Assembly: GCF_000757845.1 (NCBI RefSeq)
Contig: NZ_CP007753.1
Coordinates: forward strand, 1,426,001-1,490,000
Length of the DNA: 64,000 bases
From: Prochlorococcus sp. MIT 0604
GTDB lineage: Bacteria > Cyanobacteriota > Cyanobacteriia > PCC-6307 > Cyanobiaceae
Direction: 5' to 3'
Shown in pieces: positions 7,693-46,285 of this stretch. The position numbers and the translations under genes were made by a program. Numbering within the stretch: the first letter of the stretch is position 1; each line of letters begins with the position of its first letter. Below the pieces are notes generated by a model. That model searched no databases, was not told the origin of the DNA, and worked only from the letters and a program-made list of their open reading frames with translations.

Positions 7693-8280
7693 ATGTTAGT
7701 TATACACCATAGAAGAAATACTATAAATTCATTAAAGGCTGTTAATTCCCACTTAGGAGTTGAGGTTGATATTAGAAGTTTTGGAAGTAAATTAATTATA
7801 AATCATGATCCTTTCAAAGAATCTATAAATTTTGAAGATTGGCTAATCCACTATAAACACAAATTATTAATTCTTAATGTCAAGGAAGAGGGTTTAGAGG
7901 AACCTTTAATTCTTTTGATGAAAAAGTATAAAATAAACAATTTCTTTTTTTTAGATCAATCATTCCCCTTTCTTATAAAAACAATCTTTATTGGAGAGAG
8001 AAGAACATCTATAAGGGTCTCTGAATATGAATCAATTGAAACTGCTCTAAAACTGAGTGGGAAAGCTGAATGGGTTTGGGTGGATTTTTTTAACTATTTT
8101 CCTCTTGATTATGAAAGTTTTTTAAAACTAAAAGAAGCAAGATTTAAACTTTGCCTTGTTTCTCCTGAACTTCAAGGGCATTCTTATAAAAAAGTTGATC
8201 ATTTAAAAAATGAAATAAAAAAAATGAAAATTAATTTTGATGCAGTTTGTACTAAAAATCCAAATCTTTGGAATGGATGA
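7693..8280 (+). CDS. Glycerophosphodiester phosphodiesterase-like protein
   Basis: The 195-residue protein shows the GDPD landmarks in order: His5/His6 with Arg8-Asn9-Thr10, then Glu24-x-Asp26-x-Arg28, then NHDP with His38. In the family these coordinate metal and act on glycerophosphodiesters. It is shorter than the usual 240-300 residues, mainly in the C-terminal half, but ends with an AVCTKNP element like the terminal substrate segment of GDPDs. Within this operon it may trim or transfer a glycerophosphate decoration. Catalysis is plausible but unproven. Confidence 0.68.
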   Translation: MLVIHHRRNTINSLKAVNSHLGVEVDIRSFGSKLIINHDPFKESINFEDWLIHYKHKLLILNVKEEGLEEPLILLMKKYKINNFFFLDQSFPFLIKTIFIGERRTSIRVSEYESIETALKLSGKAEWVWVDFFNYFPLDYESFLKLKEARFKLCLVSPELQGHSYKKVDHLKNEIKKMKINFDAVCTKNPNLWNG

Positions 8281-14504: not shown

Positions 14505-14610
14505 CCATGATGCAGCTCCTGATCTTGCTCAAGTCCCCGTCCTATGGCTTGAGTCGTACTGCGGTCTATCAGATGGTAGATCGGACGATTTTGTAGTATT
14601 CACTACAATC
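14505..14610 (+). ncRNA. Candidate structured RNA
   Basis: An unusually GC-rich island in AT-rich surroundings contains three successive hairpins: CTCAAG/CTTGAG (14528-14553), TCTATC/GGTAGA (14565-14580) and TTGTAGT/ACTACAA with a four-base loop (14591-14608), followed by an AT-rich run. A reading frame across 14362-14619 exists but lacks coding character. The strand is a guess. Confidence 0.35.
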
Positions 14611-16525: not shown

Positions 16526-16572
16526 ATAAAATACTGATTTTTTAGGGAAGCTAAAAAGCTAAAATAGACTGT

Positions 16573-16617
16573 GATTGACAGTCGATCTAAACTTAGAGGG
16601 ATAAACCCCTCTTTTTT
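16573..16617 (+). repeat. R element, copy R1 (palindrome plus terminator-like hairpin)
   Basis: The conserved core GATTGACAGTCGATCTAAA contains a 15-bp near-palindrome (GATTGAC-A-GTCGATC). It is followed by a hairpin AGAGGG/CCCTCT-type stem with a T-run. Three further copies lie at 26095, 39906 and 42707, always in this orientation and upstream of a gene. Here the next start codon is 61 bases downstream. Confidence 0.75.
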
Positions 16618-26074: not shown

Positions 26075-26094
26075 ATCACAAGTAAAAATAACTT

Positions 26095-26140
26095 GATTGA
26101 CAGTCGATCTAAACTTAGAGGGATAAAACCCTCTTTTTTT
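26095..26140 (+). repeat. R element, copy R2
   Basis: GATTGACAGTCGATCTAAAC core, then the AGAGGG/CCCTCT hairpin with a seven-T run. The start codon of the next gene is at 26142, one base past the T-run, so the hairpin would be in its leader or terminate the RNA ahead of it. Confidence 0.78.
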
Positions 26141-40406: not shown

Positions 40407-41288
40407 ATGGAAGGATTTTTAGCTCTTATTTTTGTGGTTTGGTGCATTTGGAATATGTACAAAACATTTAATAAAAATATTAATAGAGGATTATCTAATG
40501 ATTGGAACAAATTAAATCAAGAAGATGAAAAAGAATACCTCAGAGAGGAAATTAGTAGACGCAAAAGTGAAAGAGTTTCTAGTTTTAAACAAAGTCTCAA
40601 GGGTAGTTGTATTTGTGGCTGCAACGGCATCCCAATGACTTTATTACCTTCATATTCAATTGATTATGAGAAATATAAATATTGTCCTGCAAGATTACAA
40701 AGAAAAAAAACAGGTTTTTATATCAATAATTCAGGCAAACTTGTTGAATGGATCCCCTCAAGAAAAAAGCTTTCCCTTGAAAGACGTTATAAGAAAATAA
40801 AGCAAAAAGAACAAAAAGAATTAAGGGATAACATTCGGAAAGAAAAAGAAAAAGAAACTCAAAGAAGATTAAAAGAACAACAAATAGCTGAATGGATTGC
40901 ACAGGGCAATACAGGTTTAAAACCTTTATCTATAGAAGAAGCAAGATATAGAAAAATGAAAACCTATATAGGCAAACCCTGTCGACTTGGACATATTGAG
41001 CGTTTTACAAGAAATAGTGATTGTGTAATTTGTGCTATGACTGCTTCAAAATTAAGGGATGCTATGAAACGAGGTGCATACCCAATCAAATTAAATGAAG
41101 ATGAAAAGGAGCAAGTAATTAGAATTTATGAGGAAGCAAAAAGATTAAGTAAAGAAACAGGTATAGAGCATCATGTGGATCATATTAAACCAGTTTCTAA
41201 AGGTGGAACTAATCACCCAAGCAATCTACAAATCTTGACCGCCAAGGAAAATCTTTCAAAAGGGGACAAATGGCAAGACAAAAATTAA
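40407..41288 (+). CDS. Membrane-anchored HNH-domain protein
   Basis: 293 residues. An N-terminal hydrophobic helix (FLALIFVVWCIWNMYKTF) is followed by a cysteine-bearing segment (CICGCNG), a long charged coiled region, then CRLGH/CVICAM zinc-type cysteines and a classic HNH nuclease signature at about 253-285: HHVDHIKPVSKGGTNHPSN, with NLQILTAKENLSKG after. HNH domains cut DNA in phage, restriction and mobile-element proteins. The membrane anchor is unusual. It lies in cassette 7. Confidence 0.78.
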   Translation: MEGFLALIFVVWCIWNMYKTFNKNINRGLSNDWNKLNQEDEKEYLREEISRRKSERVSSFKQSLKGSCICGCNGIPMTLLPSYSIDYEKYKYCPARLQRKKTGFYINNSGKLVEWIPSRKKLSLERRYKKIKQKEQKELRDNIRKEKEKETQRRLKEQQIAEWIAQGNTGLKPLSIEEARYRKMKTYIGKPCRLGHIERFTRNSDCVICAMTASKLRDAMKRGAYPIKLNEDEKEQVIRIYEEAKRLSKETGIEHHVDHIKPVSKGGTNHPSNLQILTAKENLSKGDKWQDKN

Positions 41289-42657: not shown

Positions 42658-42706
42658 CTAATAAATATAAATACATTCATTGAGGTAAGGATTAAGGATA
42701 ATTTGT

Positions 42707-42750
42707 GATTGACAGTCGATCTAACATAGAGGGATAAAACCCTCTTTTTA
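42707..42750 (+). repeat. R element, copy R4
   Basis: GATTGACAGTCGATCTAA core, then the AGAGGG/CCCTCT hairpin and a T-run. The start codon of the next gene is 42751, directly at its end. Lies about 50 bases after E8. Confidence 0.78.
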
Positions 42751-43096: not shown

Positions 43097-44059
43097 ATGG
43101 GAAAAGAAACTTCACAACTAACAGAAAAAGAAGCTTTGAGTATCTATGCGAGAATGATGCACAGTCTTGATTCGTCTGAGTTTGAATCGTTTTTGGCAGA
43201 AGACTTCTCATACTCATCACAAAAAGTCTTAACCGATATGAACTCAAAAGATGAGTTCATCGAATATATCAGACCAAAACTTGAAGTAATAAAAAAAACT
43301 AATAGTCCTGTTTACGCAGAATTAGGCGTCTGCCCAGCCTATGGTCATAACGACTGCCTTATCATGGCTCAAGGCGATAAGTCTAATCTACTTGGAGTTG
43401 CTTATGCTTCTGTAGAGGAGGGAAAAATATCTGGTCTTTCCTTGTGCATTGTTCCAACTCCTGATTCGGCTATTCGAAGTGGAATTTATCCAGGTCTTAA
43501 TGAGGTGGATTCAGGTCTTAATGTGAAAAAAGATCAAGTCATAATAACTGAAGAAGAATTTCAACGTAAAAAGGAACAGTTATTAAATTTAGGAAAAAAA
43601 GAAACTTATCAAATAGAACTATCTGGGTATGACGAGGTGCAGGCTTTTGGTATGGCGTTCGGTCTTATTGGTGAGAGAGAAAGACCAAAAGAAGATTTTT
43701 ATGAATCAACTAACTTTAATAATCTAGAGAGTTCCTTACCTTCAGATACTATTAAAGTCGCAACTTATGTGAACAAAAAATACTCCACAAAAAAAATATA
43801 TTTTTATGTGTGCTCATTTACTGAATCAACTCAGAGAGCAAATCATCAAGAAGTATATTCACTCTTTTCTATTATGTGGAGTAGAGATAGTCTCTGGGAA
43901 TTAAACCCTTGGTACTGTTGTTCTGTACTATCTGAAAAACCTCAAGCACCTTTACATAAAGAAGCAGCAAATTGGATGTTTAAAGGAGTTGCTACCACAG
44001 GTTGTTTAATTGCATCAGTAGATGACTTCAAAAATGGGACATTGGAGATATTAATTTAA
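43097..44059 (+). CDS. Hypothetical protein with N-terminal NTF2-like region (320 aa)
   Basis: Residues 10-110 look like an NTF2/SnoaL-type domain: KEALSIYARMMHSLDSSEFE, then FLAEDFSYSSQKVL and IEYIRPKLEVI. The middle (ITEEEFQRKKEQLLNLGKKE) is a linker, and the C-terminal 160 residues are a second folded region with tryptophans and paired cysteines (NPWYCCSVL, TTGCLIAS). I do not recognise the whole. It starts 22 bases after the membrane-protein gene, probably the same transcript. Confidence 0.5.
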   Translation: MGKETSQLTEKEALSIYARMMHSLDSSEFESFLAEDFSYSSQKVLTDMNSKDEFIEYIRPKLEVIKKTNSPVYAELGVCPAYGHNDCLIMAQGDKSNLLGVAYASVEEGKISGLSLCIVPTPDSAIRSGIYPGLNEVDSGLNVKKDQVIITEEEFQRKKEQLLNLGKKETYQIELSGYDEVQAFGMAFGLIGERERPKEDFYESTNFNNLESSLPSDTIKVATYVNKKYSTKKIYFYVCSFTESTQRANHQEVYSLFSIMWSRDSLWELNPWYCCSVLSEKPQAPLHKEAANWMFKGVATTGCLIASVDDFKNGTLEILI

Positions 44060-44063
44060 AACG

Positions 44064-44179
44064 CTTACTACTCCCACTACTAGCTGCTATCTCATTATCT
44101 TCTCCAATTAATGCTGGCGTTGATACTAAAGAAAAAATCTTTTATTTCGAAGCTCTAGTTCATCGAGAATATCTTTAAG
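44064..44179 (+). pseudogene. Possible remnant of a secreted-protein gene
   Basis: In the frame reading KRLLLPLLAAISLSSPINAG there is a textbook signal peptide but no start codon: the codon before KRLLL is TTA. After 18 more codons (VDTKEKIFYFEALVHREYL) it stops at TAA. It overlaps the end of the leftward small gene. A lost gene start is likely, though chance resemblance cannot be excluded. Confidence 0.3.
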
Positions 44180-44338
44180 GATTACTCTGATTAGAATTGT
44201 TTCATCAATAATCATTCTTAAACCATCTTCTAAAGTTTCGAAATCATTAGCTTTTAATCTCTCTCTTATTTCAATAACAATCTTCATCGATTCAATTGTT
44301 TTATCATCCATTTTCAGAATCTTTAAGAGAGTCTCCAT
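44126..44338 (-). CDS. Small acidic protein (70 aa)
   Basis: Starts METLLKILKMDDKTIESMKI and is one to two helices (IVIEIRERLKANDFETLEDG). Its start overlaps the end of the upstream gene by 35 bases, so the two are probably co-transcribed. Soluble, unknown function. Confidence 0.48.
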   Translation of the reverse strand: METLLKILKMDDKTIESMKIVIEIRERLKANDFETLEDGLRMIIDETILIRVILKDILDELELRNKRFFL

Positions 44339-44732
44339 CGCAAATAATTAGAGCTTGAGTCTTGTTATGTTGCATTATTTGATAATCACTATCATCCTTT
44401 GCATCTTTAAGAAGCTCAATAATCTTTGTATTTTGTTCAATAAGAATTTTCTGATTACCAGTACTTTCCTTATGAAAACCCTGAAACATATCAAATAAAT
44501 ATCTAAACCCTTTATTAACCGATTTCTTAAGACTACCTACCGCATTGGCATTATTGGCAATTACTTGATTATTCTGGCGAATTACTGTTGAAGTCTCTTT
44601 GTATTTTTCAAAGACACTACTTAAAGCTTTAGAGAAAGCGTTCTTTCTACTTTCCTGAGAGTTGAACTTCTTTAATGAAGCATTATTGTCATCGTTAGAA
44701 GTTCCAGAGTTACTGGCGTTCAGCATTTTCAA
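44304..44732 (-). CDS. Polar coiled-coil-type protein (142 aa)
   Basis: Asn/Ser-rich N-terminus (NASNSGTSNDDNNASLKKFN) followed by a helical region (FSKALSSVFEKYKE, VNKGFRYLFDMFQGFHKEST, NQKILIEQNTKIIELLKDAK) with many hydrophobic heptad positions. No catalytic motif. It faces the acidic 70-residue gene downstream. Confidence 0.5.
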   Translation of the reverse strand: MKMLNASNSGTSNDDNNASLKKFNSQESRKNAFSKALSSVFEKYKETSTVIRQNNQVIANNANAVGSLKKSVNKGFRYLFDMFQGFHKESTGNQKILIEQNTKIIELLKDAKDDSDYQIMQHNKTQALIICDGDSLKDSENG

Positions 44733-44901
44733 AATTTATATGATGAGTATTTATATAATTAGCACTCCCTATGGTATCTGCATGAAGTTACTTTATATTC
44801 GTTACATTTCTGAAATAATAGTAAACAAATAAACTGATATATCATTGCTATCACTAGTGTTGCACAAAAGCCAACAGATGATTTTTGATGACAGTTGACA
44901 G

Positions 44902-45028
44902 CTGTGGACAATAAGTCCACAGACGATGATTGTTGATAGTTGTTGACAATAAGTCAACAGAGATTGTTGATAGTTGTGGACAATAAGTCCACAGAGATAG
45001 TTGATAGTTGTGGACAATAAGTCCACAG
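44902..45028. repeat. Four-unit tandem array of hairpins
   Basis: Four units at 44903, 44941, 44975 and 45009 (spacing 38, 34, 34) each contain TGTGGAC-AATAA-GTCCACA, with a constant AATAA loop and a TTGATAG-like lead-in. In unit 2 both arms change together (TGTTGAC / GTCAACA), so pairing is kept. It lies in the gene-free stretch between the leftward gene and E9. The array could be a protein-binding site or a structured RNA. Confidence 0.85.
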
Positions 45029-45199
45029 TAAGTTGCTCTAAATACTTATAAGTAAATAAGAAATAAAACACAGTATTTCCAATGAGTATACCCCTTTTCT
45101 TATATCAATTACAGAACAAAGATATGGGTCTTCAATGGTATTTAGTGACCCATGATGAGTATCTAAATGGTATTCAAGGGTAAATAGAGACCATAGACT

Positions 45200-45352
45200 T
45201 ACCCCAATACCAACCATCACTTTCCTAAATAGGAACTTTAATGGATAATAAACATATAAATGAAATTCTGATTCTAGCAAAATTCTAGCAGATTAATTCC
45301 TCCAAATCCCTTGATATGACTGAAGAAAATTTTTGGCTAATGAAAAGTGAGC
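45200..45352 (+). repeat. E element, copy E9: the native upstream region and start of the EVE gene
   Basis: CCAACCATCACTTTCCTAAA, GGATAATAAACATATAAAT, the variable site ATTCTAGCAAA-ATTCTAGCA, then CCCTTGATATGACTGAAGAA running into the intact EVE gene at 45316. This is the right end of the array and the only copy in which the reading frame continues. Confidence 0.9.
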
Positions 45353-45774
45353 CTGATGCATATAGCATAGATACTTTAAAAAATGACGGTGTAACTTTAT
45401 GGGATGGAATAAGAAATTATCAGGCTCGAAATTTTATGAGAAAAATGAATAAAGGAGATAAAGTTTTTTTCTATCATTCGAATTGTAAACCCCCAGGTAT
45501 TGTGGGACTTATGGAGGTAATAGATCTAAATATTATTGATCCTACTCAATTTGATAAAGATTCAAAATATTTTGATCCAAAATCTAAACCTGATAATCCT
45601 AGATGGGATTGTGTAAAAGTAAAATATAATTTTAAATCAGATAAGATTTTAAGTTTACCTGAATTAAAGATTTTATTTAATGAGGATGAGTTATTAGTCG
45701 TAAAAAAAGGAAATAGGTTGTCAATATTACCTGTCAGAAATGATATTGCAAAAATACTACTAGAAAAAATATAA
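45316..45774 (+). CDS. EVE-domain protein
   Basis: 152 residues, a single EVE domain: FWLMKSEPDAYSIDTLK, then TLWDGIRNYQARNFMRKM, GDKVFFYHSN, PRWDCVKVKYNFK. EVE domains (PUA-like fold) bind modified bases in DNA or RNA. The length matches stand-alone bacterial members. The first dozen codons and upstream 110 bases are the template of the eight truncated copies E1-E8 in the island, so this gene is the likely integration anchor. It appears complete and is followed by core genes. Confidence 0.9.
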   Translation: MTEENFWLMKSEPDAYSIDTLKNDGVTLWDGIRNYQARNFMRKMNKGDKVFFYHSNCKPPGIVGLMEVIDLNIIDPTQFDKDSKYFDPKSKPDNPRWDCVKVKYNFKSDKILSLPELKILFNEDELLVVKKGNRLSILPVRNDIAKILLEKI

Positions 45775-45780
45775 AAATTT

Positions 45781-46032
45781 TTAATCCTTAAAATTCATTG
45801 AAAACATATTACCAATGTAGAGTCTAGTTAAATCCCTATTTTGAAATCCTTTTTGCATCAAAAATCCTGCAATAGCAGCTTGTAGTATCCTGTATTGATC
45901 CCAGTTAGGATGATCCTCAACGAATTCTTTCATAGCCTTTTGAAGATTTTCTTGAAGTTCACATTTGAAACTTATTACTTCATCTTTATGATTTAATACT
46001 TTTGAATTTTCGTCGTAATTTAACTCTTGCAT
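45781..46032 (-). CDS. DUF2811-family protein
   Basis: 83 residues from ATG 46032 (an alternative ATG at 46107 adds 25). The pattern ISFKCELQENLQKAMKEFVE then DHPNWDQYRILQAAIAGFLM followed by QNRDLTRLYIGNMF is that of DUF2811, found in cyanobacteria. Soluble helical protein. It faces the EVE gene tail to tail; function unknown. Confidence 0.7.
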   Translation of the reverse strand: MQELNYDENSKVLNHKDEVISFKCELQENLQKAMKEFVEDHPNWDQYRILQAAIAGFLMQKGFQNRDLTRLYIGNMFSMNFKD

Positions 46033-46226: not shown

Positions 46227-46285
46227 AAGTTTTCCACATACCTTAGATCATTAGATATTTTTTTTTTAAATACTGTGGAAAACTT
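46227..46285. promoter_or_regulatory. Inverted pair of DnaA-box-like sites
   Basis: AAGTTTTCCACA (46227-46238) and TGTGGAAAACTT (46274-46285) are a perfect 12-bp inverted repeat 35 bases apart in very AT-rich sequence. TTTTCCACA matches the DnaA box reported for cyanobacteria. The interval 46108-46345 contains no gene. It lies at the island/core junction and is too small to be the chromosomal origin by itself. Confidence 0.5.

Follow-up and report, generated by a model that had tools for sequence, protein, structure and literature searches.

We asked what a row of four near-identical inverted repeats does in the genome of Prochlorococcus MIT0604 (1,780,061 bases in one contig), a strain that PMC4421930 places in HLII. 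The repeats lie in the 64,000-nucleotide stretch of DNA analysed here, which we call the window. Four 19-nt dyads of the form TGTNGAC-AATAA-GTCNACA span positions 44903-45027, starting 38, 34 and 34 bp apart, and this agrees with the preliminary description of four TGTGGAC-AATAA-GTCCACA-type repeats at 34-38 bp. The features are:

44890-45029, plus strand: the whole array with its linkers
44902-44922, plus strand: unit 1 dyad, CTGTGGAC-AATAA-GTCCACAG, with 8-bp arms
44903-44921, plus strand: 19-nt core of the unit 1 dyad, arms TGTGGAC/GTCCACA
44941-44959, plus strand: unit 2 dyad, TGTTGAC-AATAA-GTCAACA, changed in both arms
44975-44993, plus strand: unit 3 dyad, TGTGGAC-AATAA-GTCCACA
45009-45027, plus strand: unit 4 dyad, TGTGGAC-AATAA-GTCCACA
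44857-44879, plus strand: possible decayed fifth unit, rejected because its score does not exceed that of the top chance matches in the rest of the window

The loop AATAA is identical in all four units, and the eighth stem pair (44902/44922) is present only in unit 1. Tandem Repeats Finder gave the array a score of 185, with a period of 34, 3.9 copies and 89% matches, and the array arose when a 34-bp unit was duplicated in tandem. The units differ at seven columns: five of the 15 linker columns and two stem columns, which form a matched pair. The arms vary solely in this pair, where a T/A in unit 2 replaces the G/C of units 1, 3 and 4 in both arms (TGTTGAC/GTCAACA), just as had been described before.

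Could such an array be expected by chance? It exceeds what chance gives. Hairpins were counted if the stem had 7 bp or more, the arm 3 or more G/C and the loop a length of 3-8; the window contained 11, four of them in the array; in dinucleotide shuffles (n = 20) the maximum was 2 hairpins per 130 bp, reached in one shuffle. The pattern GTNGACN5GTCNAC matched four times in the window, once in each unit, versus no match in 100 shuffles, and GGACN5GTCC occurs in units 1, 3 and 4 and is absent from the rest of the window. Folding z-scores were -7.2 for the plus strand and -6.6 for the minus strand, values that perfect palindromes yield by construction. Two substitutions drawn at random formed a matched pair in 0.4% of draws in the 34-nt unit and in 1.4% in the 19-nt dyad. 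The paired change argues for a constraint on symmetry, but it is a single pair in a single unit and so possibly one event; template switching within a quasi-palindrome can also produce both arm changes together. The earlier argument, that a paired change favours a fold or a two-fold symmetric site over slippage alone, is consequently upheld in part: such a site is favoured, and its binding-site version is strengthened by the restriction-modification (R-M) regulator sites described below, but tandem duplication did make the array and the pair may count as a single change. The main rival to the reading that we prefer is that a chance palindrome slipped in this lineage, without function, and that template switching gave the paired change unselected. 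This would account for the closeness of the units (82-94% identity to the reference unit, linker included) and for the presence of the array in one genome only, related modules lacking it, whereas it leaves unexplained why the variation spares the dyad except for the matched pair (the numbers are small) and why the 19-mer coincides with sites by HTH_3 genes at four Firmicutes loci. We consider it rather unlikely, though the foremost of the alternatives, with an RNA hairpin leader next.

The array occupies the upstream DNA of a minus-strand gene pair, A-B, which has a counterpart in the genome of another species, G110. The features of this region are:

44307-44726, minus strand: gene A, 140 aa, with an ATG start common to the G110 homologue
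44129-44311, minus strand: gene B, 61 aa from an inner ATG (70 aa from an earlier ATG), overlapping the end of A
44724-44831, minus strand: proximal block, about 100 bp before A, common to the window and G110
45072-45097, minus strand: distal block, MAAGGGGTATACNYNTTGNNAATACT (AAAGGGGTATAC...TTG..AATACT), present with at most 2 mismatches in 2 of 265 genomes, this one and G110
45200-45355, plus strand: E9, the upstream DNA and first codons of an EVE-domain gene and the left edge of homology with relatives; context only, outside the array

The G110 homologue of A is 52-53% identical, and B (72% identity) follows it in the same order. To the left and right of the array's position, the window can be aligned with the upstream DNA of G110; between the two blocks the G110 DNA is different and A+T-rich, and an unfiltered covariance search of the G110 locus (L114) gave nothing above 4 bits. 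By this alignment, the array was either inserted or expanded within the upstream DNA of the module in this lineage, or it was lost in G110. The preliminary description had taken the absence of the array beside unchanged neighbouring genes in close relatives as telling against its reading, and G110 presents such a case, with the reservation that it is another species and carries the pair elsewhere, on a stretch with tRNA-Met.

We also asked whether the array could be transcribed. A TATAAAT at 44749-44755 (minus strand), promoter-like by eye only, lies in the proximal block in both the window and G110. The promoter scan reported no sigma-70-type site at this stretch; over 44000-45800 it returned fewer sites than in shuffles, none of them explaining A-B transcription. 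A row of RNA hairpins in a long minus-strand leader of A-B, acting on translation, termination or stability, is an unlikely reading. The minus strand does fold as four separate hairpins with open linkers, one compensatory change is present and, speculatively, the distal block could hold a promoter beyond the array; on the other hand, this is a single paired change, a promoter at TATAAAT would leave the array untranscribed, G110 has no array, and Rfam at the gathering threshold had no match in it, which rules out a known Rfam RNA at that threshold as its identity. The sole Rfam match in the window was a Glutamine-II riboswitch (14528-14590, minus strand), with a counterpart in G110 at L114 7579-7820, about 0.7 kb from the A-B pair there.

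What are genes A and B? Gene A matched no Pfam and no PADLOC family and had only weak PHROGs matches (best E 0.008, a virion structural profile), and the best Pfam match of gene B (E 0.019) fell below the cut-off; we discounted these weak matches as evidence. The structure model of B is a helical hairpin (pLDDT 86) for which a viral fold search found nothing with E <0.001, and that of A is poor (pLDDT 51). Among 266 genomes searched, this one included, A has one relative, in G110. A profile search for B reached E <=0.001 in 12 of 265 genus genomes, again including this one; the gene has an inner stop in G148 and is partial in G266. An A-like gene aligned ahead of B in five of the B genomes, with 15-22% identity to the A of the window in three, and in others a different small ORF stands ahead of B. 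B-type genes are about 60 aa long, match no known family, often end in RN.RF and lie behind another small gene (loci L114, L134-L136, L164, L167 and L169). Two of them, in G171 and G031, are located upstream of the EVE gene at a distance of a few kb. Gene A had no relative in phage records and none confirmed in viral contigs, which were searched with two peptide patterns, and on these grounds we rejected a phage origin of the pair; gene B was likewise not found in viral contigs. A hairpin cluster within 1.4 kb before B was found at none of the 11 other B loci, which have at most 2 separate hairpins each, so the array is not a fixed part of the A-B module. Since these loci and G110 do without it, the genes do not need the array, which argues against any essential role. 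The array also draws attention to B and its partner, B-type genes being present in 12 of the 265 genus genomes.

Does the array occur elsewhere? Among the comparison genomes (one per species), blastn found it in none of the 199 others of the genus. A covariance model of the unit scored the four units at 55-60 bits; in 264 other genomes, where searches of such large sets run with stricter filters, it gave five single matches (19.7-22.5 bits, E 0.02-0.1) and no array. All four matches of the pattern in this genome are inside the array, even with two mismatches allowed. The two-mismatch pattern is present in 81 of 200 genomes (this one included), mostly as one TCCAGACAATAAGTCTACA site with a few other single sites, and nowhere in a row outside this genome among the 200 scanned. 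Phages and plasmids searched with three units gave matches of E 0.3-3 only, phage records gave E 0.3 or worse only, and in open-licence papers we found no description of this array. Thus, the array is specific to this genome among those examined.

The preliminary description had placed the array just left of E9, at a presumed integration boundary where regulatory or partition-type sites would be expected. The placement was right, with a gap of 172 bp (45028 to 45200). E9 belongs to a variable stretch (23.7-45.4 kb) that holds nine direct copies of a ~155-bp element, each terminating in the opening codons of the EVE-domain gene, to which the last copy itself belongs:

23751, 25604, 29359, 31967, 33835, 36853, 39678, 42439 and 45200, all on the same strand: match starts of the ~155-bp element

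The copies look as if the 5' end of a protein gene had served repeatedly as a target of site-specific insertion. They split the island into cassettes; two 11-bp direct repeats, e.g. TTTATCCAAAC, come after six of the nine, and the element is present more than once in several relatives. We compared 54 loci, of which 52 have the EVE gene and 49 extend 420 bp or more to the left of its start (G023 counted twice). Homology in the compared relatives begins at ~45192-45219 or further right and never reaches the array. The DNA left of E9 in the 49 loci contained no array-like DNA and no two hairpins within 200 bp, and the sole match there to 44061-45199 was 54 bp at 44061-44114, in L079. In addition, the array is flanked by the two blocks shared with G110, whose pair has no copy of the element in the 14 kb examined. 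A boundary role was therefore rejected. Other repeats were noticed too: 43597-44059, part of a 320-aa cassette gene that matched SHOCT weakly, is 82% identical to a second place in this genome (G000:C1:43025-43475), and the gene has a 91% copy at a different place in G004. A stretch of 45-57 bp recurs at 16561-16617, 26085-26139 and 42704-42749 with 94-96% identity, and partly in L114 near 8071-8119.

Nor was anything seen in favour of a partition-type role. That the repeats are iterons for the replication or partition of a mobile element, perhaps including DnaA boxes, is the least probable reading of all. The units are direct repeats from which TTGTCCACA, a DnaA-box-like 9-mer, reads out in units 1, 3 and 4, and three of the six window matches to TTNTCCACA, the DnaA-box form used for comparison, are in the array; the count of six is not significant, however, being reached in 8 of 100 shuffles, unit 2 keeps its dyad without the box, and the scanned proteins included no replication or partition family. 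We accordingly rejected DnaA boxes in the array as weak. A facing pair of TTTTCCACA, which we take to be a cyanobacterial DnaA-box form, lies at 46230-46238 and 46274-46282 near a DUF2811 gene.

We then asked whether the dyad itself resembles known protein-binding sites. The exact pattern was found in viral contigs once, as a single site in a contig that is identical to Paenibacillus DNA in its flanks, and in species genomes in 16 stretches with one match each, records of this genome possibly being absent there; the scan covered 257 billion bases, so chance matches are expected. Some of the stretches have common flanks (L096/L100, L098/L103 and L099/L110), and L108 is the viral contig. ORFs were examined at five of these stretches (L097, L104, L106, L107 and L109), chosen for a second GAC-type box following the site. 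In four, all from Firmicutes (L097, L104, L107 and L109), the exact 19-nt pattern lies at or just upstream of an HTH_3 gene (Pfam E 6e-17 to 1.5e-12) and precedes a second GAC-type box, and C5- or N6-methyltransferase or BstXI-type genes are within a few kb; around the L106 site no regulator or R-M gene was seen by eye. An HTH_3 gene and a site near R-M genes are the layout of R-M controller proteins and their C-box operators. The array dyad looks like a C-box-like site, coinciding, by its letters, with what seems to be a functional type of operator. Neither this genome nor G110 has a match over the HTH_3 cut-off, while all 14 control genomes have one. Two weak HTH_3 matches in this genome are, as judged by eye, presumably a RodZ-like protein and a terminase-small-subunit-like protein. 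The latter type of protein is encoded at L139 1471-1941 (~633.6 kb in this genome), next to what we take by eye to be an HNH-like protein and an integrase-like fragment; this locus is possibly a phage-satellite island. A search of this genome for a relative of the L107 regulator, run without a positive control, found none.

We propose, at a probability of roughly 0.4, that the array is a tandem-duplicated cluster of four operator-like dyad sites upstream of the rare two-gene A-B module. A dimeric protein of the helix-turn-helix type would recognise every TGTNGAC-N5-GTCNACA dyad at the DNA level, and its occupancy of the sites would change A-B transcription from the promoter-like stretch ~147 bp downstream. 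An HTH_3 protein encoded in this genome is probably not the binder; some other regulator of the host is a candidate, as is a protein brought by a phage or a different element. From centre to centre, the TGTNGAC half-sites are separated by 12 bp, a spacing that suits an HTH dimer. The operator reading is further supported by the restriction of arm variation to one matched pair, against five variable columns of 15 in the linkers, by the exact dyads at the four HTH_3 genes near R-M genes, by the position of the array within upstream DNA partly conserved with G110, and by a GTTGA half-site in all four linkers: GTTGA(T/C) stands 10 bp ahead of the first arm in every unit, and half-sites recur through the array at 10, 11 and 13 bp and once at 17 bp. 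Support also comes from GGACN5GTCC in units 1, 3 and 4, since PMC5282649 reports GGACN5GTCC as a controller motif in Mollicutes and a GACT/AGTC core for the inverted repeats of controller proteins. The same reading is weakened by the absence of an HTH_3 protein above the cut-off and of a relative of the L107 regulator, by G110, which keeps the pair and parts of the upstream DNA without the array, and by the 34-bp spacing, which at ~3.2 helical turns puts adjacent dyads on different faces. It is weakened as well by the paired change possibly being one event, by the origin of the C-box match in a huge scan with L106 lacking a regulator, and by the lack of a sigma-70-type promoter at the promoter-like stretch.

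It is improbable that the array serves as a sensor or decoy for a non-host regulator, from a cyanophage or helper element, that would switch on A-B or soak up the protein. Such a role would fit the lack of a host binder, the expansion in this strain alone and the location in a variable island; the viral scan gave a single exact site, in the Paenibacillus-flanked contig, and phage records nothing better than E 0.3. Were the sites bound, as in the operator reading, a variable island of Prochlorococcus would carry an operator cluster, with which the partner protein could be isolated directly. A neutral array would neatly illustrate how duplication together with palindrome repair can mimic covariation.

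Finally, we compared the array with known systems. Like the REP-type repeats of PMC3733652, it consists of short intergenic palindromes, but it is one cluster of four and not dispersed, with no other copy in the genome even at two mismatches; as all four genome matches are in the array, a dispersed REP identity was rejected. CRISPR arrays are also palindromic repeats at regular spacing; here, however, the linkers in the place of spacers are themselves repeated and not unique, and on this ground that identity was rejected. In Type III toxin-antitoxin systems, ToxI consists of tandem ~35-nt repeats upstream of a small gene, as the array does, but genes A and B match no Pfam toxin family and A none in PADLOC, so with no ToxN/AbiQ-type family for A (Pfam, PADLOC) or B (Pfam) this system was rejected too. 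Plasmid and phage iterons are direct repeats with internal symmetry, a form that the array recalls, whereas no replication family was found among the neighbouring proteins scanned. C-boxes are likewise among the closest known systems, and one alternative is that the array is an orphan C-box array remaining from a lost R-M system. We hold this to be very unlikely: no C protein was found; the seven neighbouring proteins and B contain no R-M family apart from an HNH protein at 40407-41288, ~3.6 kb away; the four dyads are 34-38 bp apart versus 15 bp for the box pair of L097 and L109; and the array is in a cyanobacterium, the others in Firmicutes. What the array and the C-boxes have in common is the GAC-N5-GTC dyad, and its 19-nt pattern is, exactly, the first box at L097, L104, L107 and L109.
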